Below are positions 18,096 to 47,221 of a DNA stretch of 64,000 nt, piece by piece. Positions within the stretch are counted from its first letter, which is position 1, and each line of letters begins with the position of its first letter. Source of the DNA: Brevundimonas fontaquae (GTDB lineage Bacteria; Pseudomonadota; Alphaproteobacteria; Caulobacterales; Caulobacteraceae); the NCBI RefSeq assembly GCF_017086445.1, contig NZ_CP070968.1, positions 1,860,001-1,924,000 on the forward strand. The letters are read 5' to 3'. Both the position numbers and the translations under genes were made by a program. The notes under the pieces were generated by a model. It searched no databases. It saw nothing but the letters and a program-made list of their open reading frames with translations, and was not told where the DNA came from.

Positions 18096-19076
18096 TCAGT
18101 GCGCGCGTTTCAGAAAAGTGTCGAGGAGGGCTTCCCAAGCGGGCGGACCTGGCTGGCCGGAATCGGTCAGGCCGTGTCCCCCCTTTTCGAACACATGCAG
18201 TTCGGTGGGCAGGTTCTGCGCGCGCAGGGCCTGCCACAGCATCACACTGTTCTCGACCGGCACCACGCGGTCGTCGGCGGCCGAAGCGATGAAAGTCGGC
18301 GGCATGTCGGCGGGCACATGGCGTTCGATGGACCAGGCGTCGCGGGCGGCGTCCGTGGGGGCGGCGCCGACCAGGGCGCGGGCTGACGGGCCGTGGGCGT
18401 AGGGCTGCGTCAGGGTGACGACCGGGAACATCAATCCGGCGAAGTCGGGCCGGGTCGGCAGGCGGTCGATGGCGTCGACGGGAGCGTAGGCGTCCTGAAC
18501 GAACCGGGTCGCCAGCAGGCCCGCCACATGACCACCGGCCGAGAAGCCGGCGACCGCGACACGGTTTGGGGCGAAACCCAGTTCCACCGCGCGTGAACGC
18601 ACGATGCGGATGGCGCGCTGGGCGTCCTGCAACGCGACGGCGGGACCGGCGGCCCAGCCGTCGCCGGGCAGGCGGTAGTCCATCACGAAGACGGTGTAGC
18701 CCATTTCGGCCAAACGCGCGTCGATGGCGCCGCCCGCCTTGCTGACGGCGACGCGCTGATAGCCGCCGCCAGGGATCATCAGGATGGCCGCGCCATTGGG
18801 CCGGGCCGGGCGACGCAGCATGATCCACGGATCGCGCACGTGGACGAAAGCTGTGTCGTTGGGATCGCCATTCGGATTGCGCAGGACGACCTGTTCCTGA
18901 ACCGTCACCGCTTCACCGCCTGGCGCGGCGCCGGGCCACAGGGGGCGGACCTCGAATGGCGCTGAGACGGCAGGCGTGGTCGAAGACGCCGTTTGCGCGC
19001 GGGCGACGGCGGGCGCAATGAATGCGCCCGCGCCGAAGGCCAGGAGGGTCCGACGCGGAAGGCGAGGCGTGTTCAT
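18096..19076 (-). CDS. Exported alpha/beta hydrolase (acyl esterase of the pectin island)
   Basis: A 326-aa hydrolase with a Tat-like signal (PRRTLLAFGAGAFIAPAVARAQ). The oxyanion motif is IPGGGYQ, the nucleophile elbow GFSAGGHVAG, the acid a late Asp in SAADDRVVP and the His in EKGGHGL, matching the BD-FAE/esterase-lipase family often found as acetyl-xylan or pectin esterases. The start overlaps the GH35 stop (ATGA), so it belongs to the rhaM-GH35 operon. It likely removes acetyl or other acyl groups from imported or periplasmic oligosaccharide; the exact ester is inferred. Confidence 0.82.
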   Translation of the reverse strand: MNTPRLPRRTLLAFGAGAFIAPAVARAQTASSTTPAVSAPFEVRPLWPGAAPGGEAVTVQEQVVLRNPNGDPNDTAFVHVRDPWIMLRRPARPNGAAILMIPGGGYQRVAVSKAGGAIDARLAEMGYTVFVMDYRLPGDGWAAGPAVALQDAQRAIRIVRSRAVELGFAPNRVAVAGFSAGGHVAGLLATRFVQDAYAPVDAIDRLPTRPDFAGLMFPVVTLTQPYAHGPSARALVGAAPTDAARDAWSIERHVPADMPPTFIASAADDRVVPVENSVMLWQALRAQNLPTELHVFEKGGHGLTDSGQPGPPAWEALLDTFLKRAH

Positions 19077-22060
19077 CGATGCGATCCTTCCGTCGTGGTC
19101 TGAACGCCGCCGCGCACATTGCGCTGGATGATCAGCCGCACGTCCTCCAGCACATTGCCGGGCGCGCCGTCGGTCGAGACGGCCAGGGCGATGCTGTTGT
19201 GGCCGCGTGGGTTCAGTATGCCTTCCGGCAGGGTGAAGACCCGTTGCGGCCCGACGTTGGCGATGAACTGGCCCATGTGCCAGCCATTGACGAAGATCAG
19301 CACGCGATAGGCCGTGTCCGAACGCGGCTTGTCGATGTCGCCGAACGCCAGGGCGATGGAGGCGTCCTGGCCCTGGGGCACGTTCAGGTCGAAGTTGGTG
19401 CGATACCAGGTCACGCCCGGCTGAAGGGGCTGACCGACCGTGGCGGCGCTCCAGCGCGTATCGTCGAACTGCGGCAGGTGCCAGCCGTTGCGCTCGCCGA
19501 ACAGGCCGCCGTTGTTGGCGACCCCGCGCACGGTGTCGGTGAAGTCCTCGCCGCCCTGACGGCCCTGGATCTTCCAGGCGACAGGCACCGAGAAGCCCGG
19601 CCCGCTGCGTGGTCCGACCGAGGCCGAGACCAGGCCGCGCGCCTCCTTGTGAAAGTCATTGGCGTCGAGGTTCCAGTTATGGCCGTTGTTGCGCACCATG
19701 ACCGACAGGACGTGCGGCCCCGGCGTACGGGCGGCGTCGGGCAGGGTGAAGCGCGCCATGCCGGTGGTGATCGGACGCGGCATGCCGGTGGGCAGTTCGT
19801 CCTGACCGACCAGTTCGCCGTCCATGAACAGTTGCAGCATCCCGGCGCCGCCTGCGCCGTAGAACAACTCGATCGTCTCGGCGTTCGGACCGCCCTCGAA
19901 CCGGCCGCGATACCAAACGTCGCCTTCGTGGAAGCCATAGGCGTCCATCAGCATGTTCGGCTGGCCGTCGGGTCGCAGGGTGTTGCTGGCGTAGGCGCGG
20001 TTGTCGATGGTCTGCCAGTCGCGGTCGTCGAAGTCCGGCTTGGCCTCGGGCGATCCGGGGGCCGCGCGCCAGTTCGTCAGGGCAGGCAGGGCGAAATCGG
20101 CCGGGCCGGGCAGGGCGGACCGGGCTTCCAGTCCGCCAGAGGCCGTGGTGCGCGTGGCGACGGTCGCGCCGTTCCAGCGCACGGACCGGACCGGCTGGGA
20201 CGACCACAACTCCAGCGGCGTCGCCTCGCGGGTGTCGCCGGTCAGCAGCAGCTGGCCGCGCTCGATGCGGGCGTGACGCAGCAGAGCTGGGCCACGGACC
20301 AGGACATCACCCTGACGCCAGAAGCGGGCGGCTTCCTTTTCTTCGCCGATCAGCAGCAGGAGGTCGGGACGACCGCCGCCGCTGATCTTCACGCGGGCCA
20401 GGCCCTGATGGGCGTAGTCCAGCTTCAGGTCGCCGGTCGCCGGCTCGAAGGCGGAGCGGACCTGACCGTCCAGCACCGTCACGTTAGGGGCCGAGGCGAA
20501 GCGCAGCACGGTCTGGCCGGGCTCGTCCTTGCGGCCATACATCAACGCGACCGGCTGGCGCGCCGACGGCAGGACCGCTTGGACCTCCGACGTCGAATAG
20601 ACCAGCCGCTGACCGGCCAGATCGACCCCGGCGACCAGCCATTTGGCGTCAAAGCCGTTCAGCGTCATCGGTACAACGTAGCGGCCGTCGGGCAGGTTTG
20701 CGGTTACGGTGAAGTCGTCGTTCGTCTGGCCGTTCGACGGCTTGTGCGTGACCAGCAGGAAGCGGGCGTCCGTCTCCAGGCTGCGGTTATGATAGACTTG
20801 GATGTTCGGCGACGAAATCTCGACCGGCCCGGCGGGGATCATGCCGGCCAGATCGGGAACCGACTCCAGCAGGCCCGCCAGTTGCTTCATTTCCTCGGCC
20901 TTGACCCGCAACTCGCGCGCCTCGGAGATGGCCGCGCCATAGTCGTAGCTAGTGAAGACCACCGGCGCCGCCAGCCAGCCCCAGCTGGTGCCGCCGAAGC
21001 CGACATAGATGCTCTGCAGCGTGATGCCGTTGGCCAGGTTCACGCCGTAGAAGACGCGCTGGAACCGCTCGCCCCGCTGGCGGGCGTTGCATTCATAGCC
21101 GCCGTTGGAGCCCCAATAGTCGAACCAGCCGCCGCCGATCTCGGCCATGAAGCCGGGTGTCGAAGGCGAGGCCGAGGCGCCGCCCTTGGCGCCGCCCGGA
21201 CCATAGAAGCCCCAGTCGGGCGCCGCCGCGCCGCGCGTGGTCTGGCCGCCGACGGTGCAGGTGCCGCCGGGATAGCCGTCGAAGGCATAGAGATCGACGG
21301 GGCCGTGCACCACCTTGTCGACGGGCGAGGTCTCGGGCGCCCAATAGCCGTTGCGGCCCTGATCGTTATGGAAGATCGGCACATTGATGCCGTCCGCCCG
21401 CGCCTTGGCGTACAGATGGTCCATGTAGCGGCGGTGCGCCGGGGTGGTCAGCGCCAGCTCGTTCTCGATTTGATAGAGGATGACCGAGCCCTGGTTGCCC
21501 TTGCCGTCGCCATTGATCTGATGGCGGGCGATGATGGCGTTGATCTGGGTCATCCACTCGTCGGCGGCGGCCAGATAATCCGGTGAATCCGTGCGCGACG
21601 GCGCGCGCTGATTGACCAGCCAGCCGGGGAAGCCGCCGCGTGTCAGTTCGGCGTTGGCATAGGGGCCGGGCCGGACGATGACATAGAGGCCCTCTTCCTC
21701 GGACATCTTCAGAAGCCGATCCAGGTCGCGGATGCCGGTGAAGTCGTAAACCCCCTGCTTGGGGCTGTGGTAGCCCCAGTCGAAATAGAAGGCGACGGTG
21801 TTGAACCCGCTGGCCTTCATCTTCTGCAGCACGTCACGCCACAGCTCGGGGCTGGGCAGGCGGAAGGGGTGCATTTCGCTGGACCAGATGACTAGGCGCT
21901 TGCCGTTGATCATCAGGGACCGGGCGTCATAGGAGACGCGGCCGAAGGTCTGGGCGGGGGCGGTTAAATCGGCGGTGGCCTGGGCCGTCTGCGCGACGGC
22001 GGTCGAGGCTTGAACCAGCGGGGCGGCGGCGATGGCGGCCGCGAGGAGAAGCGCGCGCAT
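19073..22060 (-). CDS. GH35 beta-galactosidase, large multidomain form
   Basis: A 995-aa secreted or periplasmic enzyme: signal peptide MRALLLAAAIAAAPLVQASTAVAQ, then the GH35 TIM barrel (VIWSSEMHPFRLP, NTVAFYFDWGYHSPKQG, GLYVIVRPGPYANAEL). QIENEL holds the acid/base Glu and MAEIGGGWFD the likely nucleophile Glu. Residues beyond about 420 are beta-rich, with jelly-roll modules containing DVWYRGRF and TWYRTNFD, usual for long GH35s. It is expected to trim galactan side chains from rhamnogalacturonan I. The ATG sits in a TGATG overlap with rhaM; the stop overlaps the esterase start. Confidence 0.88.
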   Translation of the reverse strand: MRALLLAAAIAAAPLVQASTAVAQTAQATADLTAPAQTFGRVSYDARSLMINGKRLVIWSSEMHPFRLPSPELWRDVLQKMKASGFNTVAFYFDWGYHSPKQGVYDFTGIRDLDRLLKMSEEEGLYVIVRPGPYANAELTRGGFPGWLVNQRAPSRTDSPDYLAAADEWMTQINAIIARHQINGDGKGNQGSVILYQIENELALTTPAHRRYMDHLYAKARADGINVPIFHNDQGRNGYWAPETSPVDKVVHGPVDLYAFDGYPGGTCTVGGQTTRGAAAPDWGFYGPGGAKGGASASPSTPGFMAEIGGGWFDYWGSNGGYECNARQRGERFQRVFYGVNLANGITLQSIYVGFGGTSWGWLAAPVVFTSYDYGAAISEARELRVKAEEMKQLAGLLESVPDLAGMIPAGPVEISSPNIQVYHNRSLETDARFLLVTHKPSNGQTNDDFTVTANLPDGRYVVPMTLNGFDAKWLVAGVDLAGQRLVYSTSEVQAVLPSARQPVALMYGRKDEPGQTVLRFASAPNVTVLDGQVRSAFEPATGDLKLDYAHQGLARVKISGGGRPDLLLLIGEEKEAARFWRQGDVLVRGPALLRHARIERGQLLLTGDTREATPLELWSSQPVRSVRWNGATVATRTTASGGLEARSALPGPADFALPALTNWRAAPGSPEAKPDFDDRDWQTIDNRAYASNTLRPDGQPNMLMDAYGFHEGDVWYRGRFEGGPNAETIELFYGAGGAGMLQLFMDGELVGQDELPTGMPRPITTGMARFTLPDAARTPGPHVLSVMVRNNGHNWNLDANDFHKEARGLVSASVGPRSGPGFSVPVAWKIQGRQGGEDFTDTVRGVANNGGLFGERNGWHLPQFDDTRWSAATVGQPLQPGVTWYRTNFDLNVPQGQDASIALAFGDIDKPRSDTAYRVLIFVNGWHMGQFIANVGPQRVFTLPEGILNPRGHNSIALAVSTDGAPGNVLEDVRLIIQRNVRGGVQTTTEGSHR

Positions 22061-22377
22061 CAGGCTTGATGGAACATCAGTTGCAGGGGCCATTCGCGCG
22101 GCTGGTCGCCCGGCTCGACCTCCATCAGCGGCGCCATATAGGTCCACCACTTCCGCATTACCGGGTGGCTCGGCAAGTCGTCCAACGTATGGTTTTCCGC
22201 CCGGCGCAGAACCGCGAACAGGGACAGGGTCTCTTCATCCAGGAAGATCGAATAGTCGCTGACCCCGCTGGCTGTCAGCAGTTCGGCCAATTCGGGCCAG
22301 ATGGCGTCGTGCCTCGCCTTGTATTCGGCGACCGCGCCCAGCTTGAGCTGCATGCGGAAAGCGTGAAGCGCGCCCAT
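22060..22377 (-). CDS. rhaM: L-rhamnose mutarotase
   Basis: A 105-aa dimeric alpha/beta-barrel enzyme interconverting alpha and beta L-rhamnose. Family hallmarks: an early AFRMQLKLGAVAEYKARHDAIWPEL (His/Trp/Pro core), an SIFLDEET strand, and the C-terminal MRKWWTYMAPLME with paired Trp. Full length for the family. First gene of the rhaM-GH35-esterase operon. It feeds the rhamnose dehydrogenase encoded 19 kb away. Confidence 0.93.
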   Translation of the reverse strand: MGALHAFRMQLKLGAVAEYKARHDAIWPELAELLTASGVSDYSIFLDEETLSLFAVLRRAENHTLDDLPSHPVMRKWWTYMAPLMEVEPGDQPREWPLQLMFHQA

Positions 22378-22384
22378 GATTCCT

Positions 22385-22430: not shown

Positions 22431-22463
22431 CGGAGGCGGCGCGTCAAACGGCATGCAGCGCGG

Positions 22464-23672
22464 TCAATCGCCGCGCGGCCGCTCCTGGCTGGCCGCCAGG
22501 CTGGGTGCGATGTCGGTCTCGGCCATCGGCGGGGCGTCCGGCGTGAACGTGCGGAGGTCGGGCGCGATGTGCGTCGCCAAGCCGGGAGCCTTCTCGGCGA
22601 GCTGAGCGGCGACGGCGCGGGCCAGCAGCCAGGCGCCGGCGTTGTCGTGATGGGTGCGGTCCGCCCCGCCGTCATTGAACAGGCTCGCTGCCTGATCGGG
22701 TCCCAGCGCCTCATAGATGCGTCGCGACGCGTCGTTCAGGTCGATCATCGGCACGTCCTCTTCGCGAGCGACCTTGCGCGCCGCCTCGGCATAGGCGCCC
22801 AGGGTGTCCTGGATGCGTCCGTCACGGAAGTTCCGTCGCTCGGGCGAAGTCACCAGAACCGGATGCGCGCCGCGCCGCTTCGCCTCTGCGATGAAGATCT
22901 TCAGATAGGCGGGATAGGTGGTCTCGGGATCGACGTAGGTCTGGGGCCACTGGACCTTCTGGTCGTTGTGGCCGAACTGGATCAGCAGCCAGTCTCCAGC
23001 CTTCAGCGTGGTCAGGATCTTGGCTAGCCGCAATTCGCTGATGAAGGACTTCAACGTCTCGCCTGATTGGGCGTAGTTGGCCACGGCGATGTCGGGGGTC
23101 ATCAGGGCGGGCAGCATCTGCCCCCAGCTGGCCGCCGGTTCGGACGATTGGTCAGTGACGGTGGAATCCCCCGCCAGATAGATGACGGGCCCCTCGACCG
23201 GCGCGATGTCGATGGCCGCGACCTGCGGGTGGCCCAGAAATTCCAGCGTCAGCCGATCGTCCCAGTTGCGCGAAGCGACTTCCTGTGGCGACAGGGTGAC
23301 AGCCGACCGGCCCGGCGCATTGGCGGGCGGCGCGGGCAGGGCGGGGCCGCGCACTGAAACGATGAAGCTGCGGGTCTGATAGACGTCCGGCGCAGTGACG
23401 ATGTCTCGCGCCATCAGCCGCCGGGCCTCGGCCTTGACCGTGGTGCGTCCGGCCTCGGGTCCGCCGAAACGGATGGTGACGCGATAGAAACCCTCGGGGA
23501 CAGCCGCCGAGAAGACATATCCGTCCGACGTCGCCTGTGGCTCGAAGCCATAGCCGCCTGGCTGATAGGTCTGGCTGGGCGGAACCGCGATCCGGCCCGG
23601 CGAGCTCGGCTGGGTCGCCAGGTCGAAGCGCCAGGTCGATATCGTCGCCGCCATCAGGATCGCCGTCAGCAT
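22464..23672 (-). CDS. Rhamnogalacturonan acetylesterase, CE12-like SGNH hydrolase
   Basis: A 402-aa esterase. A short hydrophobic N-terminus is followed by a beta-sandwich carbohydrate-binding-like region (residues 15-160, GFYRVTIRFGGPEAGRTTV) and an SGNH domain: block I LAGDSTVTDQ (nucleophile Ser), block II Gly in YAQSGETLKSF, block III FGHNDQK (Asn), and DRTHHDNAG with the catalytic Asp-x-x-His. This order is characteristic of CE12 rhamnogalacturonan/pectin acetylesterases. Start ATG at 23672, 26 nt after kdgK, so it is in the kdu operon. It removes acetyl groups that block RG lyases. Confidence 0.88.
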   Translation of the reverse strand: MLTAILMAATISTWRFDLATQPSSPGRIAVPPSQTYQPGGYGFEPQATSDGYVFSAAVPEGFYRVTIRFGGPEAGRTTVKAEARRLMARDIVTAPDVYQTRSFIVSVRGPALPAPPANAPGRSAVTLSPQEVASRNWDDRLTLEFLGHPQVAAIDIAPVEGPVIYLAGDSTVTDQSSEPAASWGQMLPALMTPDIAVANYAQSGETLKSFISELRLAKILTTLKAGDWLLIQFGHNDQKVQWPQTYVDPETTYPAYLKIFIAEAKRRGAHPVLVTSPERRNFRDGRIQDTLGAYAEAARKVAREEDVPMIDLNDASRRIYEALGPDQAASLFNDGGADRTHHDNAGAWLLARAVAAQLAEKAPGLATHIAPDLRTFTPDAPPMAETDIAPSLAASQERPRGD

Positions 23673-23698
23673 CGGGGTGTCTCTTCGCGAGGGGCGGC

Positions 23699-24757
23699 CT
23701 ATCGCCGGATATCGAAGCCGCCGTCGCCCATGGCGGCGCGCACGTCGTCGGCGGTGAACAGGTTGAAGTCGCCGGGCACGGAGTGTTTCAGGCCGGCGGC
23801 AGCGAGGCCGAAATCCAGAGCTTCTTGATCCGACCATCCGCTCCACAGCCCGAACAGGACGCCGGAGGCGAAGGCGTCGCCGCCGCCGACCCGGTCGACG
23901 ACCCCGGCCATGTGAATGGCCTCGGCTTTGGTCTCGATCACGTCGTCGCCGTTCCGCGTCAGCATGACAGCCGACAAGGCCTGGTCGGCGACGCTGTCCT
24001 GAATCCGCAGCGTACAGGCGATGCGTTGCAGGCGAGGGAAGGCGGCGAAGGCGTCGGCGGCGGCCTGGCGACGACGTACGGTCGGATCGGGATCGTCGAA
24101 CTTGGTCTTCAGCACCAGGGCGAAGTCCCGGTCGTCGGCGAAGGCGACCGTGGCGCCGGCCAGCATCTTGCCAAGCGTGGTCGGCGGATCGCCATCCCAC
24201 TGCTCCCACAACTTGCCGCGGAAGTTGCCGTCGTAGCTGATCTTCACGCCTTTCCTAACGGCGGCCTCGATGAGGGCGACAGCGGCGGCCGAACCATTGG
24301 GACCCGTCGCCGGGGTCACGCCCGAGGCGTGCAGCCATTCGACGCCCTCTAGCAGCCGGTCCCAGTCGAAGGCGGTGTGCACATGTTCGACAAAGGCCGA
24401 ACCGGCGCGATCGTAGAGGACTTTCGACGGACGACGAACAGCACCCGGCGTCAGGAAATACAGACCCATGCGGCCGGGTTTGAAGACGACCTGAGCGGTG
24501 TCGACCCCGTGCTTGCGCACTTCGTCACGCACGCCGCGGCCCAGCGCATTGTCGGCCAGGACCGTCGCCATAACGGTCGGCGCGCCGAAGCGGGCCAGGG
24601 ACACGGCGACATTGGCCTCGGCCCCGCCCGGACGCACGGTCAGGGCAGGGGACTGCATCAGCAGTTCGTTGTGGTTGGGCGAAAACCGCAGCAACATCTC
24701 GCCGAAGCAGAGGATGGTGCGAGAGGCGGCCATAGAGCCCGAGGCGGTGTTGGTCAT
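23699..24757 (-). CDS. kdgK: 2-dehydro-3-deoxygluconate kinase
   Basis: A 352-aa PfkB-family sugar kinase. CFGEMLLRFSP starts the substrate domain, RPGGAEANVAVSLARFG is PfkB signature 1, and DRVGGGDAFASGVLFG is signature 2 with the catalytic Asp and anion hole. It phosphorylates KDG, the product of KduI-KduD, to KDPG. It lies between kduD (20-nt gap) and the acetylesterase. No KDPG aldolase (eda) is in the window, so the last step must come from the Entner-Doudoroff genes elsewhere. Confidence 0.9.
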   Translation of the reverse strand: MTNTASGSMAASRTILCFGEMLLRFSPNHNELLMQSPALTVRPGGAEANVAVSLARFGAPTVMATVLADNALGRGVRDEVRKHGVDTAQVVFKPGRMGLYFLTPGAVRRPSKVLYDRAGSAFVEHVHTAFDWDRLLEGVEWLHASGVTPATGPNGSAAAVALIEAAVRKGVKISYDGNFRGKLWEQWDGDPPTTLGKMLAGATVAFADDRDFALVLKTKFDDPDPTVRRRQAAADAFAAFPRLQRIACTLRIQDSVADQALSAVMLTRNGDDVIETKAEAIHMAGVVDRVGGGDAFASGVLFGLWSGWSDQEALDFGLAAAGLKHSVPGDFNLFTADDVRAAMGDGGFDIRR

Positions 24758-24777: not shown

Positions 24778-25536
24778 TCAGCGCGCCTGCCAGCCGCCGT
24801 CGACCGGCAGGATGGCGCCCTGGACATAGTCCGAGGCCCGGCTGGCCAGGAAAACGGCCGCGCCGCCCAGGTCCGACGGCTCGCCCCAGCGACCGGCGGG
24901 GATGCGGCCCAGAATCTCGGCCGAACGGACCGGGTCCTCGCGCAAGGCCTGGGTGTTGGCGGTGGCGAAATAGCCGGGGGCGATGGCGTTGGCGGTGATG
25001 CCGTGGGGCGCCCACTCGTTGGCCATCAGCTTGGTCAAGCCGGCCACGCCAGACTTGGACGCGGTGTAGGAAGGCACGCGGATGCCGCCCTGGAAGGACA
25101 GCATGGAGGCGATGTTGATGATCTTGCCGCCGTCGCCCTGTTGGATGAACAGGCGCGCCACCGCCTGGCTCATGAAGAAGACGGTCTTCAGATTGATGTT
25201 CATTACGAGGTCCCAGTCGGCCTCGGTGAAGTCCACCGCGTCGGCGCGGCGGATCAGGCCGGCGTTGTTCACCAGGATGTCGATCCGGCCCATGGCGGCC
25301 AGGGCTTCCTGAACCACGCGTCCGACCGGCTCGATCGAGGTCAGGTCGGCGCTGATGGCGTGGGCGCGGCGGCCCATCGCCTGGACCTTGGCGACCGTTT
25401 CGTCGGACTCCGACAGGGCGACCGAGACGATGTCGGCGCCCGCTTCGGCCAGAGCCAAGGCGATGCCTTGACCCAGACCCACATTGCCGCCGGTGACCAG
25501 GGCGACCTTGCCGGTCAGGTCGAACGGATTGCTCAT
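24778..25536 (-). CDS. kduD: 2-dehydro-3-deoxy-D-gluconate 5-dehydrogenase
   Basis: A 252-aa SDR: VTGGNVGLGQGIALALAEAGADI cofactor site, NNAGLIRRADAVDF, Ser in IASMLSFQGGIRVPSYTASKSG with the catalytic Tyr-x-x-x-Lys. The segment PAGRWGEPSDLGGAAVFLAS and the end PVDGGWQAR are hallmarks of KduD. It reduces 2,5-diketo-3-deoxygluconate from KduI to KDG. It sits 22 nt downstream of kduI. Confidence 0.93.
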   Translation of the reverse strand: MSNPFDLTGKVALVTGGNVGLGQGIALALAEAGADIVSVALSESDETVAKVQAMGRRAHAISADLTSIEPVGRVVQEALAAMGRIDILVNNAGLIRRADAVDFTEADWDLVMNINLKTVFFMSQAVARLFIQQGDGGKIINIASMLSFQGGIRVPSYTASKSGVAGLTKLMANEWAPHGITANAIAPGYFATANTQALREDPVRSAEILGRIPAGRWGEPSDLGGAAVFLASRASDYVQGAILPVDGGWQAR

Positions 25537-25558: not shown

Positions 25559-26416
25559 TCAGCGCAGTTGGCAGATGTCGAGCTTGCACATGTCGGTGTA
25601 GTCGAGGTTCTCGCCGCCCATGCCCCAGATGAAGGTGTAGTTGGAGGTGCCGGAGCCCATGTGGATCGACCACGGCGGGCTGATGACGGCTTCGCCGTCG
25701 GCCATGACGATGTGTCGCGCGTTGTCCGGCTCTCCCATGAAGTGGAAGACGCGGTCGTTCTCGCCTAGGCCGAAGTAGAGATACGCCTCCGAGCGACGGT
25801 CATGCAGGTGCGGCGGCATGGTGTTCCACACCGAGCCGGGCTTCAGCACCGTCACGCCCAGAAGCAGTTGGCAGGACTTCACCTTGGCCGGGACGATGTA
25901 CTGATAGATGGTCCTTTCGTTGGACGTCTCCAGCGACCCCATCTCCAGCGGCACGGCTTCGTCGATCGAGATCTTGGTCAGGTCGTAGCGGGCGTGGGCC
26001 GGCATGGCGATCAGGTAGAATCTGGCCGGTTCGGCGGCGTCCTTGGAGGCGAAGCTCACTTCGGTCGACCCCATAGGCACATAGAGGCCGTCGCGGAAGG
26101 CCAGTTCTATGGTCTCGCCATCGACCGTCACCGAACCGGCGCCGCCGATATTGACTACGCCCAGTTCGCGCGCGTGCAGGAACGGTTTGCCGGCCAGGGA
26201 CGGCGGCTCCGAATGGCTGGGCAGCCCCAAGGCGCCTTCGACCGGCATCGCGCCGCCCAGGACCATCCGCTCATTGTGGGAATAGTTCAGGCTGACCTTG
26301 CCCGGCGTGAACAGCCCGCCGACCAGATAGCGGTCCCGCAGCTGCTGGTTCGTGGCGCCTTCCATCATGTCCGGGTGGGTGGCCTGATAAATCTTGTCGT
26401 ACATCGGATCGGACAT
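25559..26416 (-). CDS. kduI: 5-dehydro-4-deoxy-D-glucuronate isomerase
   Basis: A 285-aa cupin isomerase converting 5-keto-4-deoxyuronate (from unsaturated galacturonate) to 2,5-diketo-3-deoxygluconate. Family marks: [19 protein letters not shown] near residue 15, [20 protein letters not shown] with the metal-binding His-x-His and Glu, and the C-terminal [20 protein letters not shown]. Start chosen at MSDPMYDK; an ATG at 26431 would add five residues. First gene of the minus-strand kduI-kduD-kdgK-acetylesterase operon, divergent from the GH105 gene. Confidence 0.93.
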
Positions 26417-26503
26417 GGTCTGGGGTCTCATACAGGTTTGATGGGGCGAGGCGGCTGGAGTGGACGCTCGCTCATAGCGCGATCTTAGAGCCGGTTCCTC
26501 GCC

Positions 26504-26540
26504 TTGACGAGGCATTTCAGCTCACATAATGAGAGAGCTG
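26504..26540 (+). promoter_or_regulatory. Promoter and inverted repeat ahead of the GH105-symporter operon
   Basis: TTGACG (26504-26509), 17 nt, then TAATGA (26527-26532) make a good sigma-70 promoter for the plus-strand genes. An inverted repeat CAGCTC-N11-GAGCTG (26518-26540) overlaps the -10 and probable start site, the place of a repressor operator. The long 5' leader to 26713 also contains the palindrome GGCGCC-TC-GGCGCC. No gene is seen in 26417-26712. Confidence 0.5.
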
Positions 26541-32943: not shown

Positions 32944-32978
32944 AGCGTAAGGCGCCGCTGGGGCGGCGGGAGTTGACC

Positions 32979-39250: not shown

Positions 39251-40447
39251 TTAGGGGCGCGCGTACGGGCGATGCAGGGCGATGTCGCGGTTCAGCTCGA
39301 CGCCGAAGCCGGGGGTATCTGGAACCTTCAGGCGGCCGTTTACGGGGACGGGTTCGCCGATCAGTTGCGGATGGAACATCGGCACGACCTCGTCGGCGCC
39401 GGGGGCCATCATCAGGAACTCGGCGAACGGGCTGTTATGGCGGGTCACCACGAAGTGGTAGGAGTAGACCGATGAGCCGTGCGGGATCATCAGCACGCCC
39501 TTGGCGTCGGCCAGGGCTGAAATCTTCTGCAGTTCGGTGACGCCGCCGCACCAGCCCACGTCCGGCTGGATGATGTCGCAGCATTCCATCTCCAAGAGCA
39601 TGCGAAAGCCCCAACGGGTGGCCTCATGCTCGCCGGTCGTGACCAGCATTCCCTTGGGGGCGTTCTTCTTCAGCGCCTGATAGCCCCAGTAGTCGTCGGG
39701 GCTGAGCGCCTCCTCTATCCACTTCAGACCCAGTTTGTGGGCCTCGTGGGCCAGCCGCGTGGCGTAGTTCAGATCCAGCGCCATCCAGCAGTCGAACATC
39801 AGCCAGAAGTCGTCGCCGCAGGCGTTCCGCATGGCTTCGAGTTCAGCGATGGTCTTGTGCAGGCCTTCTTCGCCCTCGGCCGGGCCGTGGTGCAGGGGCA
39901 TCTTGCCGCCGATGAAGCCCAGTTCCTTGGCTTTGTCCGGCCGCGCGCCGGTGGCGTAGAAGATCAGTTCGTCGCGCACCGCCCCGCCCAGCATGGCGAA
40001 AACCGGCTCCTGACGCAGGCGGCCCAGCAGGTCCCACAGCGCCAGATCGACGCCGGAGATGGCGTTCACGACCAACCCCTTGCGGCCATAATACTGGGTT
40101 GAGAAATACATCTGGTCCCAGATCTTCTCGACCTCGGACGGATCGCGGCCTTCGAGGAAGCGGGCCAGGTGTTTCTCGACGATATAGGCGGCGGGTTCGC
40201 CGCCGGTCGTCACCGCAAATCCGACCACGCCGTTCTCGGCCTCGATCTCGACGACCAGGGTGCCCAGCACATTGATGCCGAAGCTGCGGCGGCTTTGGCG
40301 GTACTCGGGGTATTTCGCCATGGGCGTGGCGATGTGGTCGTCGATCCAGTGGCCATCGCCCTGATCGTGGTAGTCGGCGCCGCCGCCCGTGCCGTCGTTC
40401 TTCACGACGAAGGCGCGAACGTGTTTGATGCGGGGAAGGCGGCTCAT
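39251..40447 (-). CDS. rhmD: L-rhamnonate dehydratase
   Basis: A 398-aa enolase-superfamily enzyme dehydrating L-rhamnonate to 2-keto-3-deoxy-L-rhamnonate. Family marks: [18 protein letters not shown] near residue 32 (20s loop), [13 protein letters not shown], the barrel ligands in [22 protein letters not shown] and [12 protein letters not shown], and the catalytic His in [12 protein letters not shown]. Length equals the E. coli protein (about 400). First gene of the five-gene minus operon, divergent from the IclR gene. Its Shine-Dalgarno region lies inside a perfect inverted repeat (40454-40472). Confidence 0.93.
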
Positions 40448-40453
40448 CGCGTC

Positions 40454-40472
40454 ATCACCAAGGATTGGTGAT
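40454..40472. promoter_or_regulatory. Perfect 19-bp inverted repeat just upstream of rhmD
   Basis: ATCACCAA-GGA-TTGGTGAT, 8-bp arms with a 3-nt centre, ends 6 nt before the rhmD start. In the rhmD mRNA the 3' arm contains GGTGA, the only plausible ribosome-binding stretch, so it may work as an operator on DNA or as an RNA hairpin hiding the ribosome site. Confidence 0.6.
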
Positions 40473-40543: not shown

Positions 40544-40563
40544 GCGACTTGTGCGTTTTGCTA

Positions 40564-40576
40564 CATTCTGAGAATG
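40564..40576. promoter_or_regulatory. Candidate operator ahead of the iclR-type regulator
   Basis: CATTCT-G-AGAATG is a perfect 13-bp inverted repeat directly in front of the AGGA ribosome site of the IclR gene. IclR regulators commonly bind short palindromes and repress their own gene; autoregulation is inferred. Confidence 0.5.
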
Positions 40577-40587
40577 AGGATTACGAA

Positions 40588-41394
40588 ATGGGACGAACGC
40601 CGTCAATCAAGACCGCACAGGTCGATGGGGATGAAGAGGTCGGCGCCAAGGCGTCCGGCAGCCAGACCCTGTTGCGGGGTCTGGACGTTATCGAGGCCCT
40701 GATCGACGGCTCACTGCCGCTGGCCGAATTGTCTGAAAAGCTGGAACTGACGCGCAGCACGACCCATCGTCTGGCCTCGGCCCTGGTCGAGCGGCGGCTG
40801 CTGTCCTTCCGCCCGCGCGAGGGCTACTCGCTCGGCCCCAAACTGCTGGAGCTAGGCCATGCGGCCAGCCAGCAGATGCATTTGCCGCGCGTCGCGCGGC
40901 CCTGGTTGGAACAACTGTCGGCTCAGACCGACGATACGGTCCACTTGGGCGTGCTGGACGGGCGTCATGCGCTGTATCTGGACAAGGTGGCGGGGCGCAG
41001 GCGGATCAACATCGGCTCGCGCCTGGGCGAACGTCATCCGATCGCCTCGACCGGCCTGGGCAAGGCGTTGATCCTGGACAAGACCGAGGCGGACTGGATC
41101 GACTTCTACGCCGAGCCGGGCGCCACCTATGACTCATCCGCCCGCGCCGTCTGGCTGGAGCGGATGCATGGCTACGCCCAGAAGGGTTACGCCTTCGACC
41201 TGGAAGAGAACGAAGACCAGATCCGTTGCGTCGCCGCGCCGATCCGTTCGGTGAACGGCCAGATCGTCGCCGCGCTCAGCGTGTCTTCCGCCGCGCAATA
41301 TATGTCGGACGCCCGGATGACCGAACTGACCAAGACCGTGACCGAGGCCGCCAACGCGATCAGCGCCGACCTGGGCTGGTCGCCCAAATCCTGA
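40588..41394 (+). CDS. IclR-family transcriptional regulator
   Basis: A 268-aa regulator. A short polar leader, then the winged helix-turn-helix (about residues 25-85: TLLRGLDVIEALIDGSLPLAELSEKLELTRSTTHRLASAL in outline) and an IclR effector domain (95-260) with LDGRHALYLDKVAGRRRINI, HPIASTGLGKAL and IRCVAAPIRSVNGQIVAALSVS. The ATG at 40588 has AGGA 7 nt upstream; a GTG at 40549 would cover the operator and is less likely. KdgR of enterobacteria, the regulator of pectin catabolism, belongs to this family. The inducer is probably an intermediate such as KDG or KDR. Confidence 0.92.
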   Translation: MGRTPSIKTAQVDGDEEVGAKASGSQTLLRGLDVIEALIDGSLPLAELSEKLELTRSTTHRLASALVERRLLSFRPREGYSLGPKLLELGHAASQQMHLPRVARPWLEQLSAQTDDTVHLGVLDGRHALYLDKVAGRRRINIGSRLGERHPIASTGLGKALILDKTEADWIDFYAEPGATYDSSARAVWLERMHGYAQKGYAFDLEENEDQIRCVAAPIRSVNGQIVAALSVSSAAQYMSDARMTELTKTVTEAANAISADLGWSPKS

Positions 41395-41418: not shown

Positions 41419-42180
41419 ATGCTGCTTGAGAACAAGGTCGTCCTAATCACGGGCGCATCGCGGGGCATCGGGCGGGCGACGGCGATCGAGGCCGCGCGCC
41501 AGGGGGCCGATGTCGCCCTCAATACGTTCCGGGACGGGGCCGCCGCCGCCGATGTGATCGCCGAGATCGAGGCGCTGGGCCGCCGGGCCATCGCCGTCGA
41601 CGGCGACGTGGCCCAGTCCGAGAGCGCCGCAGCCTTCGTCGCCGCCGCCGTTCAGGCGCTGGGCCGGGTAGACGTCTTCGTCTCGAACGCCGGCATCTGT
41701 CCTTTTCACGCCTTCCTCGACATGCCGGTCGAGACCCTGCGCCGGACGATGGAGGTCAACCTGCACGGCGCCTATTTCATGGTTCAGGCGGCGGCCAATC
41801 AGATGGTGAAGCAGGGAGACGGCGGCGCTGTTGTCGCCATCAGCTCGATCTCGGCGCTCGTCGGCGGTGAGATGCAGACCCATTACACGCCGACCAAGGC
41901 GGGGGTGCACAGCCTGATGCAGTCCTGCGCCGTCGCCCTAGGCCGCCACGGCATCCGCTGCAACTCGGTCCTGCCCGGCACGATCGCCACCGACATCAAC
42001 AAGGACGATCTCGCCGATCCCCAGAAGCGCGAATATATGGAAGGTCGCATTCCTCTGGGCCGTCTGGGCCGGCCTGAGGACATCGCCTCGGTCGTCGCCT
42101 TCCTGGCCTCGGATATGGCGGGCTATATGTCCGGTGCGGCCCTCTTGGTCGACGGCGGCGCTTTCGCAAACTTCCAGTAG
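41419..42180 (+). CDS. L-rhamnose 1-dehydrogenase (SDR)
   Basis: A 253-aa SDR: LITGASRGIGRATAIEAARQGADVALNTF cofactor site in outline, VSNAGICPFHAFLDMP, catalytic SSISALVGGEMQTHYTPTKAG (Ser, Tyr, Lys). The pattern DINKDDLADPQKREYMEGR near residue 190 and GRLGRPEDIASVVAFLASD closely fit characterised bacterial L-rhamnose dehydrogenases (Azotobacter, Sphingomonas). The product is L-rhamnono-lactone. It follows the regulator gene by 24 nt and precedes lldD by 9 nt. Confidence 0.88.
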   Translation: MLLENKVVLITGASRGIGRATAIEAARQGADVALNTFRDGAAAADVIAEIEALGRRAIAVDGDVAQSESAAAFVAAAVQALGRVDVFVSNAGICPFHAFLDMPVETLRRTMEVNLHGAYFMVQAAANQMVKQGDGGAVVAISSISALVGGEMQTHYTPTKAGVHSLMQSCAVALGRHGIRCNSVLPGTIATDINKDDLADPQKREYMEGRIPLGRLGRPEDIASVVAFLASDMAGYMSGAALLVDGGAFANFQ

Positions 42181-42189: not shown

Positions 42190-43323
42190 GTGATCATTTC
42201 GTCGCCGAGCGATTATCGGGAATCCGCGCGGCGCAAGCTGCCGCCCTTCCTGTTCCACTACATCGATGGCGGCGCCTATGCCGAGCAGACCCTGCGTCGC
42301 AATGTCGAGGACTGGCAGTCCATCGCCCTGCGTCAGCGCGTACTGCAGGACATGACCAGCCTCTGCCTTGAGACCAAGCTGTTCGACGAGACCCTGCGCC
42401 TGCCCATCATCCTGGGGCCGGTCGGCCTGACGGGGATGTATGCGCGCAGGGGCGAGGTCCAGGCGGCCAAGGCGGCGGCCTCGCGCGGCGTGCCGTTCAC
42501 GATGTCGACTGTATCTGTCTGCCCGATCGAGGAGGTCGCGCCGGCCATCGACCGACCCATGTGGTTCCAGCTGTATGTGCTGCGCGACCGGGGCTTCATG
42601 AAGAATGCGCTGGAGCGGGCCAGGGCGGCAGGGGTGAAGACCCTGGTCTTTACCGTCGATATGCCGACGCCCGGCGCCCGCTATCGCGACGCCCATTCGG
42701 GCATGAGCGGCCCCAACGCCGAAATCCGCCGGATGGTCCAGGCGATGACCCATCCGGCCTGGGCCTGGGACGTCGGGGTGCGCGGCACGCCGCACGACCT
42801 CGGCAATGTCTCGGCCTATCTGGGCAAGCCGACGGGGCTCGCTGACTACATCGGTTGGCTGGCCAATAATTTCGATCCCTCGATTTCGTGGAAGGACCTG
42901 CAATGGATCCGCGACTTCTGGGAGGGCCCAATGATCATCAAGGGCATACTTGACGCTGATGACGCTCGTGACGCCGTCAGCTTCGGCGCAGACGGCATCG
43001 TGGTGTCGAACCACGGCGGGCGTCAGTTGGATGGGGTGCTGTCGTCGGCCCGCGCCCTGCCCGCCATCGCCGACGCGGTGAAGGGCGAGCTGAAGATTCT
43101 GGTGGATTCCGGCATCCGCAACGGGCTGGACGTTGTCCGCGCCATCGCCCTGGGCGCCGACGCTGTGCTGCTGGGCCGGGCCTTCATCTATGCGCTGGCG
43201 GCGAACGGTCAGGCGGGCGTCGAAAACCTGCTGGATCTGTTTGAAAAGGAAATGCGCGTCGCCATGACCCTGACCGGCGCCAAGTCGGTCGCGAGCATGA
43301 CCCGCGAGATGCTGGCGATCTGA
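42190..43323 (+). CDS. lldD: FMN-dependent L-lactate dehydrogenase
   Basis: A 377-aa alpha-hydroxyacid dehydrogenase: [17 protein letters not shown] at residue 18, [15 protein letters not shown], Lys251 in IIKGIL, and [10 protein letters not shown] with His275 as base. It oxidises L-lactate to pyruvate and passes electrons to the quinone pool. Start is GTG with AGGA 7 nt upstream. In an operon with the regulator and rhamnose dehydrogenase, it would consume the L-lactate released by the FAH hydrolase, so one rhamnose gives two pyruvates. Related hydroxyacid substrates remain possible. Confidence 0.9.
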
Positions 43324-43348
43324 CCCGCGTCAGACCGCCAGCCGTTTC

Positions 43349-44560
43349 TCAGCGATAGGGCGTCAGGTCGATGGCGTCGGCCATGGCGCGGAAGCCTGCA
43401 TCATTGGGGTGAAGATGGTCGCCGCTGTCATAGGCGGCGGCCAGTTTCAGCGGCTCGGCCGGGTCGCGCATCACGGCGTCGAAGTCGACGACGCCGTCCG
43501 CCTCTGTGTTTGAACGGATCCAGGCGTTGACGGCTTGGCGGGTCGCCTCGCCCTGGTCGGACCAGTAGTTCGCGTCCTTGTAGGGCAGGATGGTCGCCAG
43601 CCTGATTTTCAGGCCGGCGGCATGGGCGCGAACGATCATCTGGCGGTAGCCCGCGATCAGATCGGCCGGGGTCGGCGGCTGCGGATCATGATCGCGCCAG
43701 CCCATGCCGAAGTCGTTGACGCCTTCCAGAACGATCACATCGGTCACACCGGGCACAGCCAGAACGTCGCGGTCGAAACGCGCCAACGCCGCCGCACCCA
43801 AACCGGGCTTGGGCTTCAGGATGCGGTTGCCGGAAATCCCTGCGTTGGCCACCGCGACTGAGGTCAAACCGGCGGCCTGAAGCCGGGCCGCCAGTAGGTC
43901 GGGCCAGCGTCGGTCGGCGTCGCGCGTGCCGTTAGCGCCGTCTGTGATGGAGTCGCCCAGGGTGACGATGACCCGCGTCGGCTCGGCACGCTCCACGTCT
44001 ATGCCCGAGATCAGGACGCGCTGAGTGACCAGCACCGGGTCCGTCAGTTCGGCCGCCGCCGTCTGGTCGCCCGGCGCGATCCAGGCTGACGAGAGGCCCA
44101 GCAGGTGGATGGTCGGCTCGGCTATCTCGTCCGGCAGATAAAGGCTGATCGACAGGCGGCTGAGCGCGGGCAGGGCCAGATCGACCGGATCGCTGAGCAG
44201 GGGCGCATCCGGCGCCAGCACGGCGCCCGCCGATCCATCGAAGGTCAGGTCGCGCGCCGTGCCGGGCACGGGCTTTCCATCGGCGGCCAGTTGCACGATC
44301 CGCACCCGTCCGATCCGAGCGGCGGTCGGGCCGTATTCATTGGTCAGTCGCAGGCGGAACCGTTCGCCGCCCGCGCTGACGCGGACCACCTGGCGCACGG
44401 TGACGTCCTTCAGCGTCGGCGGGCCGCGGTCGGGCGCGGCGCCCAAGGGCGAGGCGTTCCAGCTTCTCGCCCAATGGGCTTCGGCATTGGCGCAGGGCGC
44501 CAAGCCCGTCTGCGCCAAGGCGGCCAGGGCCAGCGTCAGGATCAGGGCGTGCTTCTTCAT
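43349..44560 (-). CDS. Exported SGNH/GDSL hydrolase (esterase)
   Basis: A 403-aa protein with a signal peptide (MKKHALILTLALAALAQTG...ANA). An N-terminal beta-sandwich domain (residues 30-190, VRQVVRVSAGGERFRLRLTNEYG) precedes the SGNH domain: VTLGDSITDG (nucleophile Ser), ANAGISGNRI (Gly), LEGVNDFGM (Asn), and DHLHPNDAGF (Asp/His). This architecture is common in esterases acting on plant polysaccharides. It closes the PL11-lipoprotein-esterase operon and converges on lldD. Acyl group unknown. Confidence 0.85.
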   Translation of the reverse strand: MKKHALILTLALAALAQTGLAPCANAEAHWARSWNASPLGAAPDRGPPTLKDVTVRQVVRVSAGGERFRLRLTNEYGPTAARIGRVRIVQLAADGKPVPGTARDLTFDGSAGAVLAPDAPLLSDPVDLALPALSRLSISLYLPDEIAEPTIHLLGLSSAWIAPGDQTAAAELTDPVLVTQRVLISGIDVERAEPTRVIVTLGDSITDGANGTRDADRRWPDLLAARLQAAGLTSVAVANAGISGNRILKPKPGLGAAALARFDRDVLAVPGVTDVIVLEGVNDFGMGWRDHDPQPPTPADLIAGYRQMIVRAHAAGLKIRLATILPYKDANYWSDQGEATRQAVNAWIRSNTEADGVVDFDAVMRDPAEPLKLAAAYDSGDHLHPNDAGFRAMADAIDLTPYR

Positions 44561-44573
44561 CGGCTTCCTCGGA

Positions 44574-45269
44574 CTAGGCGACGGTCCAGACCGAGAAGTC
44601 TCGGACGGTCATATGATTCCAGGTGGTGCGCAGCCCGAACCAGCCGCGCCGATAGGGGGCCGGGTCGTCCAGGGCGAACATGCGCCTGTCATCGCGCCAG
44701 TATTCGATGCGGCTTCCATCGGCGATCAGGCGGATGCGGTAGGGGCGATTGGCCACGATCAGATCGCCCGCCGCCGACAGATCGTGCTGGGGCAGCAGCG
44801 GTCGTTCTCCATTGCCGACATAGCGACGAAAACGCGAGGAGGTGTTCGAATTGCCGCCAAGCCCGACATAGTAGGTCCGCAGCGTGTCATAGTCGGCGAA
44901 GGCGCCCGAACGCGGCCGGGCGATCAGATCGCCGGGACTGCGTGGGTCGTCGGCCATCCAGAAGCAGTTCAGGTCGCTGACCCGGTCATATGCACCGCCG
45001 CTCGATACGGCTTCAGCCGTGAAACGGATTTCGACCGGCGAGGTTAGTTCGCGCCGGAACCAGGCGGTGGCTCCCTTGGGCACGTCGAAGGTCATTACTC
45101 CGTCGGCGGCGCTCACCGTTCCCTGTACCTGTTCTAACTCAACCAGCCATTGGTCCAGGCCGTGACGAAAATCGTCGGCGTAAAGACACATTGGGCCGGA
45201 CCGGGGCAGGGCAGCGCATCCGGCCAGACCGGCGGCTCCGAGCAGAACTCCGCGTCTATTCGCGCTCAA
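44574..45269 (-). CDS. Lipoprotein of DUF6250 type, concanavalin-like fold, function unknown
   Basis: A 231-aa protein with a short lipoprotein signal (RRGVLLGAAGLAGCAAL, lipobox LAGC). The rest is beta-rich with many Trp/Tyr: YADDFRHGLDQWLVELE, DVPKGATAWFRREL, LNCFWMADDP, TLRTYYVGLGGNSNTSSRFRRY, NRPYRIRLIADGSRIEYWRDDRRMF, GWFGLRTTWNHM. This outline matches the DUF6250/LamG-like sandwich found next to pectin genes. Its ATG overlaps the PL11 stop (ATGA), so it is made together with that lyase. Carbohydrate binding or a lyase/hydrolase activity are both conceivable. I am fairly sure of the location and fold class, not of the activity. Confidence 0.7.
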   Translation of the reverse strand: MSANRRGVLLGAAGLAGCAALPRSGPMCLYADDFRHGLDQWLVELEQVQGTVSAADGVMTFDVPKGATAWFRRELTSPVEIRFTAEAVSSGGAYDRVSDLNCFWMADDPRSPGDLIARPRSGAFADYDTLRTYYVGLGGNSNTSSRFRRYVGNGERPLLPQHDLSAAGDLIVANRPYRIRLIADGSRIEYWRDDRRMFALDDPAPYRRGWFGLRTTWNHMTVRDFSVWTVA

Positions 45270-47221
45270 TGCCCGCTTTCCGCAGGCTGAGCTGTCTCGA
45301 ACGCGAAACTGGGGTGCGAGGGCTGGTTATAGGCCGAGTTCTGCCCCGACACCTGTGACCGATATTGCGCATCGTGCATCAGAGTGACGTGGCGGATGGC
45401 GGTCGGATGCGGGGTCACATAGATGCGCAGCGCCGAGTTATCGGCCGTGCGCCAGATCACCTCTTCACGCCAGTCGCCCAGGATGTCGGCGACCAGAACC
45501 GGATTGGCCTTGGTGCCGTTGTTGGAGGCAGCGCCCTCGGCGCTCAGAAGGGGGACGGACCGCTGGTTTTCCCAGTCCCATTTGAAGATCCGCGTGCCGT
45601 CCAGCAGTTCGCGCAAGGCGTCGCCGTCCCACCAGATGCCGAAGTTCATCTGCTGCGGGCGGGTGGGAGAGATGACCCGGCCGTCCGCCGAATACAGGTC
45701 GTTGCTGTTCGACGCCCAGACCTCGGCCCCCGGATAGCGGGGATCGATGTCGATGGCGACGCCGCGCCCGACATCCTGCTGTCCGGGCGTGAGCCACAGG
45801 ACTTCGCCGGTGCGGGCGTCGACCATAGCCGACCCGATGCCGCCATTGCCGACGACGTTTTCATGCACCCCGAACTTCTCGAGCCCCGGCCGGGTCGGGT
45901 CCAGGTCGCCGACGTGCATGGCGTCGCCGTGACCCAGCCGCGTGGTCCACAGCGCCGTTCCGTCGTCGTTCAGCGCCATCGCGCCGTAAATGATTTCCTG
46001 GCGGCCGTCGCCGTCCACGTCGGCGACGCTGAACTGGTGATTGCCCTGACCGGCGTAGCCTTCGGGCGCTGTGTCGCTGTCGAACACCCAACGCTGGCCC
46101 AGCCGTCCGTCGCGCCAGTCCCAGGCGGCGACCACAGTGCGCCCGTAATAGCCGCGCGCCATGACGATGCTGGGCAGACGCCCGTCCAGATAGGCGGCGC
46201 CGCCCAGATACCGCTCGGACCGATTGCCATAGCCGTCGCCCCAGAGGGCCGCCATCTCTTCCGATGTCGCTTGATCCCCCGTCCGACCGCGCGAGGGGAC
46301 ATAGGGCGCGCTGGCCAAGGCCGCGCCGGTGCGGCCGTCGAAGACGGTTATGAACTCCGGCCCAGACAGGATGCGGCCGACCAGACCGGCCGCCAGGCTT
46401 CCGTCCGGTTTGCGCTCGGCGCCCGTGCGGTCATGGCTGGGGATTTCGCCGCCGTCTTCGCGCCAGTCGGCTTTGGCGTCGCCGATCACCCGACCGGCGC
46501 CGTCGATCGTGCCGTCCGCGGTTTTCAGTGCGACCTCGGCCCGTCCATCGCCGTCGAAGTCCTGCACGACCATCTGGGTGTAGTGGGCGCCCGAACGAAT
46601 GTTGCGGCCCAAGTCGATGCGCCACAGCCGCCGTCCATCCAGCGTATAGGCGTCGATCAGCGTGGGGCCGGTGAAGCCGGCGAAGGCGTTGTCCTTGGCG
46701 TTGGTCGGCTGCCATTTCAGGATGATTTCGTAGCGCCCGTCGCCATCCAGATCGCCGACCGTCCCGTCGTTGGCCTCATATTCATAGGTCACCCCGTCGG
46801 GCGTAACGCCGCCATCGGGGCGATCCAGCGGGATTGTGAGATAGCCGGAAGGTAGGTTCAGCGCGTCCGACGCATTTGGGTCGCCCACGCGGCGCACGGC
46901 ATAGCGCGCCCGCAGATCTCCGGTCACGTCGTGCCAGTTCGTCGCTTCCCCTGCGCCTGTCCGGGCGACTCTCACGCCATTCTTGAACACGTCGAAGCGG
47001 GCGTCTGAAGAGTCCGTCTCCATAAGCCGCCACTGCACCAACATGCCTCTGCCGGAATTCAGCGTAGCCACCACGGACCGATCCAGCCGCTCCGGACGCG
47101 GCAACTCGGCGTTGGCGAACCCAGAGGCCATGACGAAAATCGCGCCCGAGCAGACCAAAAATCCGCGTGGTGGCGCCATGCTAAAACGAGCCAAAACCGC
47201 CTCCCAGCGCCGATGGCCCAT
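45266..47221 (-). CDS. Rhamnogalacturonan endo-lyase, PL11
   Basis: A 651-aa secreted eight-bladed beta-propeller lyase. A signal region (APPRGFLVCSGAIFVMASGFANA) leads into LPRPERLDRSVVATLNSGRGMLVQWRL, then a fibronectin-like segment and propeller blades with calcium loops: DLDGDGRYEIILKW, DFDGDGRAEVALK, DVDGDGRQEIIYGA and DILGDWREEVIWR. Conserved SGPEFITVFDGRTG and GYYGRTVVAAWDW are typical of YesW/YesX-type PL11. It splits Rha-GalA bonds of rhamnogalacturonan I by beta-elimination. The start at 47221 or the internal ATG at 47179 are both possible; the longer upstream frame has no coding character. Confidence 0.92.
   Translation of the reverse strand: MGHRRWEAVLARFSMAPPRGFLVCSGAIFVMASGFANAELPRPERLDRSVVATLNSGRGMLVQWRLMETDSSDARFDVFKNGVRVARTGAGEATNWHDVTGDLRARYAVRRVGDPNASDALNLPSGYLTIPLDRPDGGVTPDGVTYEYEANDGTVGDLDGDGRYEIILKWQPTNAKDNAFAGFTGPTLIDAYTLDGRRLWRIDLGRNIRSGAHYTQMVVQDFDGDGRAEVALKTADGTIDGAGRVIGDAKADWREDGGEIPSHDRTGAERKPDGSLAAGLVGRILSGPEFITVFDGRTGAALASAPYVPSRGRTGDQATSEEMAALWGDGYGNRSERYLGGAAYLDGRLPSIVMARGYYGRTVVAAWDWRDGRLGQRWVFDSDTAPEGYAGQGNHQFSVADVDGDGRQEIIYGAMALNDDGTALWTTRLGHGDAMHVGDLDPTRPGLEKFGVHENVVGNGGIGSAMVDARTGEVLWLTPGQQDVGRGVAIDIDPRYPGAEVWASNSNDLYSADGRVISPTRPQQMNFGIWWDGDALRELLDGTRIFKWDWENQRSVPLLSAEGAASNNGTKANPVLVADILGDWREEVIWRTADNSALRIYVTPHPTAIRHVTLMHDAQYRSQVSGQNSAYNQPSHPSFAFETAQPAESGH

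Follow-up and report, generated by a model that had tools for sequence, protein, structure and literature searches.

Breakdown of rhamnogalacturonan I (RG-I) through an imported unsaturated disaccharide has been described in several bacteria. In Erwinia chrysanthemi, a transporter of unsaturated rhamnogalacturonides, RhiT, and a cytoplasmic hydrolase, RhiN, are encoded in the operon rhiTN (PMC3870299, partial text). In Bacillus subtilis, secreted lyases give mainly unsaturated RG disaccharide (YesX), followed by an importer and the cytosolic YesR (PMC7596534, partial text), and YesU adjoins the RG acetylesterase RhgT (PMC6120924, partial text). A 2015 reconstruction for Latescibacteria has an endo-lyase, an exo-lyase and a GH88 enzyme in sequence (PMC4454575, partial text). 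Here we describe an RG-I utilisation island of 21 genes in Brevundimonas fontaquae (family Caulobacteraceae), located at 18096-47221 of a 64,000-nucleotide stretch of contig NZ_CP070968.1, hereafter the window (Table 1); the genome consists of one contig with 3,300,602 bases. The island very probably works through the unsaturated disaccharide deltaGalA-Rha. This route is already known from Bacillus, Dickeya and Latescibacteria, and the island differs in how its parts are combined.

With Bacillus, the island shares PL11 and the plan of secreted lyase, importer and cytosolic hydrolase, as far as the partial texts of the Bacillus papers go. Its DUF6250 protein, with a predicted YesU fold, is encoded between a GDSL hydrolase and PL11; YesU is found beside RhgT. 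However, PL26 replaces the exo-lyase YesX, and a GPH symporter replaces the ABC importer YesOPQ; no ABC importer of that type was present among the 21 island proteins, the set in which it was sought. The island further adds a TonB-dependent receptor, a GH105 protein distant from YteR and a non-phosphorylated rhamnose pathway. The likeness to the Rhi system of Dickeya and Erwinia is a transporter beside GH105, compared here through loci of Brenneria (L232) and Biostraticola (L231) and not through Dickeya's own locus. In these two, which are among the best 80 of 574 places confirmed beyond the family, the GPH gene lies just upstream of GH105, in keeping with the operon name rhiTN; their GPH proteins are 42% identical to that of the window, and their GH105 proteins 64-66% identical to that of the island. 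We take RhiT to be a member of the GPH family and RhiE to belong to PL4. The island lyases are PL11 and PL26 and not RhiE (no PL4 among the 21 island proteins, where it was searched for), the regulator is of the IclR type and not RhaS, and rhamnose would be oxidised without phosphorylation. For Sphingomonas, Watanabe and Makino reportedly described in 2009 an alternative L-rhamnose pathway via Lra1, a lactonase, a dehydratase, a dehydrogenase and LRA6, with L-lactate as product; in the island, this pathway is combined with lyases and transporters for RG-I. Latescibacteria differ in that the exo-lyase is PL11, monosaccharide symporters are listed for uptake and rhamnose is directed to a microcompartment, according to the partial text of PMC4454575. 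Among the matches listed in a literature search that excluded most subscription papers, no title dealt with an island of this type.

Evidence for a proposed disaccharide route

All 21 island proteins were scanned against Pfam and NCBIfam models, and signal peptides were judged by eye from the sequence rather than with a signal predictor. Three findings favour the disaccharide route over other readings: GH105 appears to be cytoplasmic, a GPH homologue adjoins GH105 in all 62 PL26 genomes of the family, and the genome is without GH78, GH106 and GH28. The preliminary description of this DNA had built the route on PL11, PL26, the TonB receptor, the GPH symporter and GH105, and all five were found in place, each with a strong family match.

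The families GH78, GH106, GH28 and GH88/105 were searched across the whole genome. GH106 and GH28 had no matches. GH78 had a single match below cut-off, at C1:1365504, which was rejected as a rhamnosidase: its GDE_N_bis and MGH1-like domains are of the glycogen-debranching type. The only GH88/105 match was the island GH105. The lack of GH78, GH106 and GH28 domains from the 21 island proteins, as first described, was borne out by the scan, and the proposed check of the remaining genome gave the same picture.

The solved chains nearest to the island GH105 were 3pmm, 3qwt and 4xuv, and the protein falls in the clade of 3pmm and 3qwt. In two close relatives (G068 and G142, 93-94% identical), the GH105 open frame has 378 residues, compared with 368 for the protein, leaving no more than 10 residues in frame ahead of the start there. 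Because these relatives leave no room upstream of the start, an export signal is unlikely and the enzyme is predicted to be cytoplasmic; a periplasmic GH105 was rejected for the same lack of space. From their families, GH105 would be expected to act on deltaGalA-Rha and the symporter to carry it.

Both backbone lyases were clearly assigned. The PL11 protein, its start read at the ATG at 47221, has the RGI_lyase and RGL11_C domains and a probable signal peptide, and it aligns with 4cag, YesW and YesX. A longer loop in YesX makes that enzyme exo-acting; at this site, the alignment gave the island protein just two inserted residues. In PL26, PF19501, PF21345 and PF21346 were each over cut-off, the match to 5xq3 had an E value of 7.8e-222, and the protein starts with a signal resembling those of the twin-arginine translocation (Tat) pathway. 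PL26 is counted among the RG lyase families (PMC8787155, partial text), and exo action of the island enzyme is expected from its family.

Both products of GH105 would enter almost complete pathways. In the non-phosphorylated L-rhamnose pathway, Lra1, rhamnonate dehydratase and LRA6 were all over their NCBIfam cut-offs. The lactonase scored 112.1 bits against the L-fucono-1,5-lactonase model, below its cut-off of 400; for the short-chain dehydrogenase/reductase (SDR), none of the models shown reached cut-off; and the top NCBIfam match of the PfkB kinase, to the kinase portion of a fused aldolase/kinase, was also below cut-off. The roles of these three are probable, judged by family and gene context. 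Outside the island are genes for two aldolases of the 2-keto-3-deoxy-6-phosphogluconate (KDPG) family, one over the cut-off of the bifunctional KDPG aldolase model and the other over that of the 2-keto-3-deoxy-6-phosphogalactonate (KDPGal) aldolase model. An aldolase over cut-off lies at C1:1135016, and the ketodeoxyuronate branch is represented by KduI, KduD and KDPG aldolase. The initial statement that the island encodes all the later enzymes but KDPG aldolase stood for Lra1, the dehydratase, LRA6, KduI, KduD and LldD, as it did for the external location of the aldolase, but the lactonase, SDR and PfkB kinase pass no specific cut-off.

In the proposed route, the esterases and the GH35 beta-galactosidase would trim acetyl groups and galactose, and PL11 would make internal cuts in the RG-I backbone. 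The TonB receptor would take the oligosaccharides into the periplasm, where PL26 may release deltaGalA-Rha for inward transport by the GPH symporter. Cytoplasmic GH105 would split the disaccharide into rhamnose and 5-keto-4-deoxyuronate. Rhamnose would be turned by Lra1, the lactonase, the dehydratase, the SDR and LRA6 into pyruvate and L-lactate, with LldD converting lactate to pyruvate, and the uronate would pass through KduI, KduD and the kinase to KDPG, to be cleaved by the aldolase encoded elsewhere. Gene families, gene order, conservation and the missing GH78, GH106 and GH28 are observed, whereas compartments, substrates and flux are inferred.

Table 1 Genes of the RG-I island, with positions in the window and the matches behind each assignment (E values, or bit scores with model cut-offs).
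Feature	Position	Strand	Match or basis
PaeX-like alpha/beta esterase (probable pectin/RG acetylesterase)	18096..19076	-	BD-FAE, Abhydrolase_3
GH35 beta-galactosidase	19073..22150	-	PF01301, 2.1e-77; BetaGal domains
GDSL hydrolase (probable RG acetylesterase)	22464..23672	-	PF13472, 2.5e-14 (22464-23690); start set by eye
PfkB kinase (probable 2-keto-3-deoxygluconate kinase)	23699..24757	-	PF00294, 1.6e-29
KduD dehydrogenase	24778..25536	-	TIGR01832, 406.7 bits (cut-off 338.85)
KduI isomerase	25559..26515	-	NF002091, 395.5 bits (cut-off 250)
GH105 (probable unsaturated rhamnogalacturonyl hydrolase)	26713..27819	+	PF07470, 9.8e-101
GPH (MFS_2) symporter (candidate importer of deltaGalA-Rha)	27845..29434	+	PF13347, 5.4e-44
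TonB-dependent receptor	29755..32892	+	TIGR01782, 572 bits (cut-off 310)
PL26 lyase (probable exo-acting)	32973..35714	+	three PcRGLX domains; PF21346, 3.1e-176
Amidohydrolase-type lactonase (probable L-rhamnonolactonase)	35734..36636	-	PF04909, 1.3e-45
Second PaeX-like esterase (variable among relatives)	36633..37610	-	
SDR dehydrogenase (probable L-2-keto-3-deoxyrhamnonate dehydrogenase)	37623..38384	-	SDR family match; role by context
2,4-didehydro-3-deoxy-L-rhamnonate hydrolase (LRA6)	38372..39220	-	NF053535, 503.4 bits (cut-off 500)
L-rhamnonate dehydratase	39251..40447	-	NF011968, 745.9 bits (cut-off 393)
IclR-family regulator	40549..41394	+	PF01614, 1.5e-35
L-rhamnose 1-dehydrogenase (Lra1)	41419..42180	+	NF053807, 455.9 bits (cut-off 400)
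Flavin mononucleotide (FMN) L-lactate dehydrogenase (LldD)	42190..43323	+	NF033901, 764 bits (cut-off 550)
Second GDSL hydrolase (probable RG acetylesterase)	43349..44560	-	PF13472, 4.4e-28
DUF6250 probable lipoprotein (candidate glycan binder)	44574..45269	-	predicted YesU-like fold
PL11 rhamnogalacturonan lyase (probably endo)	45266..47221	-	PF21348, 1.2e-220

Distribution in Caulobacteraceae and beyond

Conservation was followed in 390 genomes of Caulobacteraceae (relatives are coded G, their loci L). PL26 was found in 62 of them, from five genera. Strong PL11 matches occurred in 58 genomes of four genera (60 before the weak matches in G235 and G247 were excluded), and all 58 also carry PL26. 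A GH105 close to that of the island was present in every PL26 genome (62/62). Its pairing with GPH was seen in the window and nine genomes, and in 52 further genomes (53 loci) with gaps of 19 to 242 bases; GPH identity to the window protein was mostly 60-96%, and 42-49% in a few. GH35 adjoins GH105 in about 37 of the 53 loci. Fisher values for such co-occurrences are not independent evidence, since the genomes share ancestry.

Eleven PL26 genomes belong to the genus of the window. In all of them, PL26 and GH105 are on the same contig, 7.7-25.2 kb apart. Seven, the window included, agree in gene order; the departures are the variable esterase and, in G068, a contig end. The order is therefore not due to chance. 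In the other four (G101, G136, G165 and G170), PL11, PL26, GH105, GPH and the rhamnose genes are present but arranged differently; the stretches retrieved from them did not contain KduI, KduD or the kinase. In G155 (L053, ~10100-11800), PL11 is split over frames, probably a broken gene or a sequencing error, and the remaining island genes match at full length.

A GH78 match in a relative was counted as strong at E <= 1e-10; weaker GH78 matches alone, in 24 further PL26 genomes, were excluded from the count, and five PL26 genomes had none. The domain scan of the GH78 match was done for the window genome alone. Within the genus, GH106 was absent from 11/11 PL26 genomes, strong GH78 from 9/11 and GH28 from 9/11 (of the two GH28 matches, that in G170 is weak); 7/11 had none of the three. 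The absence of GH106 is weak evidence here, because just one genome of the genus (G100) has it.

Beyond the family, a scan of a genome collection with the GH105 alignment gave at least 574 confirmed places, and the best 80 of these were used. A GPH homologue lay within 600 bases of GH105 at 54 of these 80 and at 665 bases to 6.5 kb at 16, and none was in the stretch examined at 10. In a Sphingomonas and a Novosphingobium locus, a GH115-type gene (L187:11116-13473, L192:11119-13578) stands between GH105 and GPH, which suggests a variant substrate. A Colwellia locus has this GH105 clade without a GPH homologue; a sodium:solute symporter gene close downstream (L209:12180-14501) is possibly the replacement transporter.

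Evidence against the route and alternative readings

Several observations weigh against the disaccharide route. The GH105 clade is named beta-galactosidase BglB by NCBIfam (NF051900, 485.7 bits; cut-off 420). This name is the main caution on the role of GH105, but it is doubtful, and the neighbouring genes point to an unsaturated rhamnogalacturonyl hydrolase; the matches listed in a literature search on BglB held nothing to settle it. The protein is also distant from YteR (E value 8.3e-21), and its Asn97 aligns opposite the residue counted as YteR Asp88. Eight of the 67 genomes bearing this GH105 clade are without PL26 (from a draw of 309 family genomes; three PL26 genomes were outside the draw or not found). 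Outside the genus, the surroundings of PL26 were inspected in 21 of 51 genomes, up to 20 kb on each side, less at contig ends and on a single side for G031: GH105 and GPH were near PL26 in just one (G323), and PL11 in six. The single island therefore characterises the genus; elsewhere the gene pairs are found again but separately, and the usual distance of the GH105-GPH pair from PL26 outside the genus lowers our confidence slightly. Finally, rhamnosidases are frequent in PL26 genomes of the family: GH106 was found in 22/62 (vs 14/328 of the others), strong GH78 in 33/62, and one or the other in 39/62. GH28 was found in 53/62 vs 41/328. Exclusion of rhamnosidases by PL26 as a family-wide rule was rejected, as GH106 and GH28 go with PL26 and not against it. 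Strong GH78 and GH106 were both absent from 23 of the 62 genomes, and GH28 as well from seven, all in the genus of the window. The preliminary claim of a disaccharide route is supported, by a GH105 that is cytoplasmic by its sequence, the constant GPH neighbour and the missing rhamnosidases, but the family at large carries rhamnosidases in many PL26 genomes.

The imported compound might be deltaGalA-Rha-Gal or a longer unsaturated RG oligosaccharide, with galactose removed afterwards. A B. subtilis YesO crystal held deltaGalUA-Rha-Gal and not the bare disaccharide (PMC7596534, partial text), a further point against the route. The GH35 enzyme has a probable signal peptide, however, and galactose should then be trimmed before import; no further galactosidase was found among the 21 island proteins, the part of the genome searched for one. 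We regard import of the larger compounds as unlikely. It is quite improbable that PL11 is the chief maker of the disaccharide and PL26 has another role: the PL11 enzymes YesW and YesX reportedly yield the unsaturated disaccharide (PMC8787155, partial text), but the island PL11 differs from YesX at the loop, and no strong PL11 occurs in the family without PL26.

A rhamnosidase or galacturonidase of some other family could trim the oligosaccharides, so that the disaccharide would not be obligatory. The genome-wide searches covered GH78, GH106, GH28 and GH88/105 only, which leaves room for this, yet no such enzyme is among the 21 island proteins, and we hold it to be very unlikely. The least probable reading, which we would give hardly any weight, takes GH105 as the beta-galactosidase of its NCBIfam name and the island as serving the side chains of RG-I to a greater extent than its backbone. 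Against the over-cut-off match stand the GPH neighbour throughout the PL26 genomes, the rhamnose, Kdu or lyase genes that are often near, and the fact that this is the sole GH88/105 gene, leaving the genome otherwise no such enzyme for the unsaturated unit. The frequent GH35 neighbour also fits a side-chain role, but is weak either way.

Esterases, regulator and the DUF6250 protein

The first PaeX-like esterase scored 267.5 bits against the NCBIfam PaeX model, below its cut-off of 550, and has a Tat-like signal. Of the seven loci in the genus that share the gene order, the window counted, just three have the second. The signal peptide of GH35 follows an uncertain start. The gap ahead of the TonB receptor gene contains a perfect inverted repeat with arms of 9 bases and a spacer of 6 (29470-29493).

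The IclR-type regulator scored 121.8 bits against the KdgR model (cut-off 275). Between the gene for rhamnonate dehydratase and that for IclR, at 40454-40472, lies a perfect palindrome (8-base arms, 3-base spacer), a possible operator of the IclR protein. No second copy was found in the window at up to three mismatches, and as the palindrome is single there, a shared operator or regulon could not be argued.

The DUF6250 protein carries a Tat-like signal and a lipobox-like LAGC, and it is present in all 11 PL26 genomes of the genus. A sequence search returned no solved relative, and only fold comparison gave a lead: the predicted fold is closest to YesU (1oq1). DUF6250 was not mentioned in the literature searched, most subscription papers lying outside it. 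Beside the island, a fatty-acid-desaturase-type gene and a lycopene cyclase gene (48592-50564) are probably carotenoid genes.

Implications

The island is a compact, largely self-contained example of an exo-lyase that apparently removes the need for exo-rhamnosidases. It offers a clean test of a partnership between PL26 and the GPH symporter and of the doubtful BglB name. Within the genus, the seven genomes that have the island lyases and lack GH78, GH106 and GH28 are matched by the remaining four, which are natural controls. For DUF6250, the island gives a first functional lead. It is possible, although rather less than probable, that PL11-PL26 and GH105-GPH in this family form a self-sufficient module able to replace exo-acting rhamnosidases and galacturonidases, and that DUF6250 is the equivalent of YesU in Gram-negative bacteria, binding RG-I or its fragments for this module as a lipoprotein.

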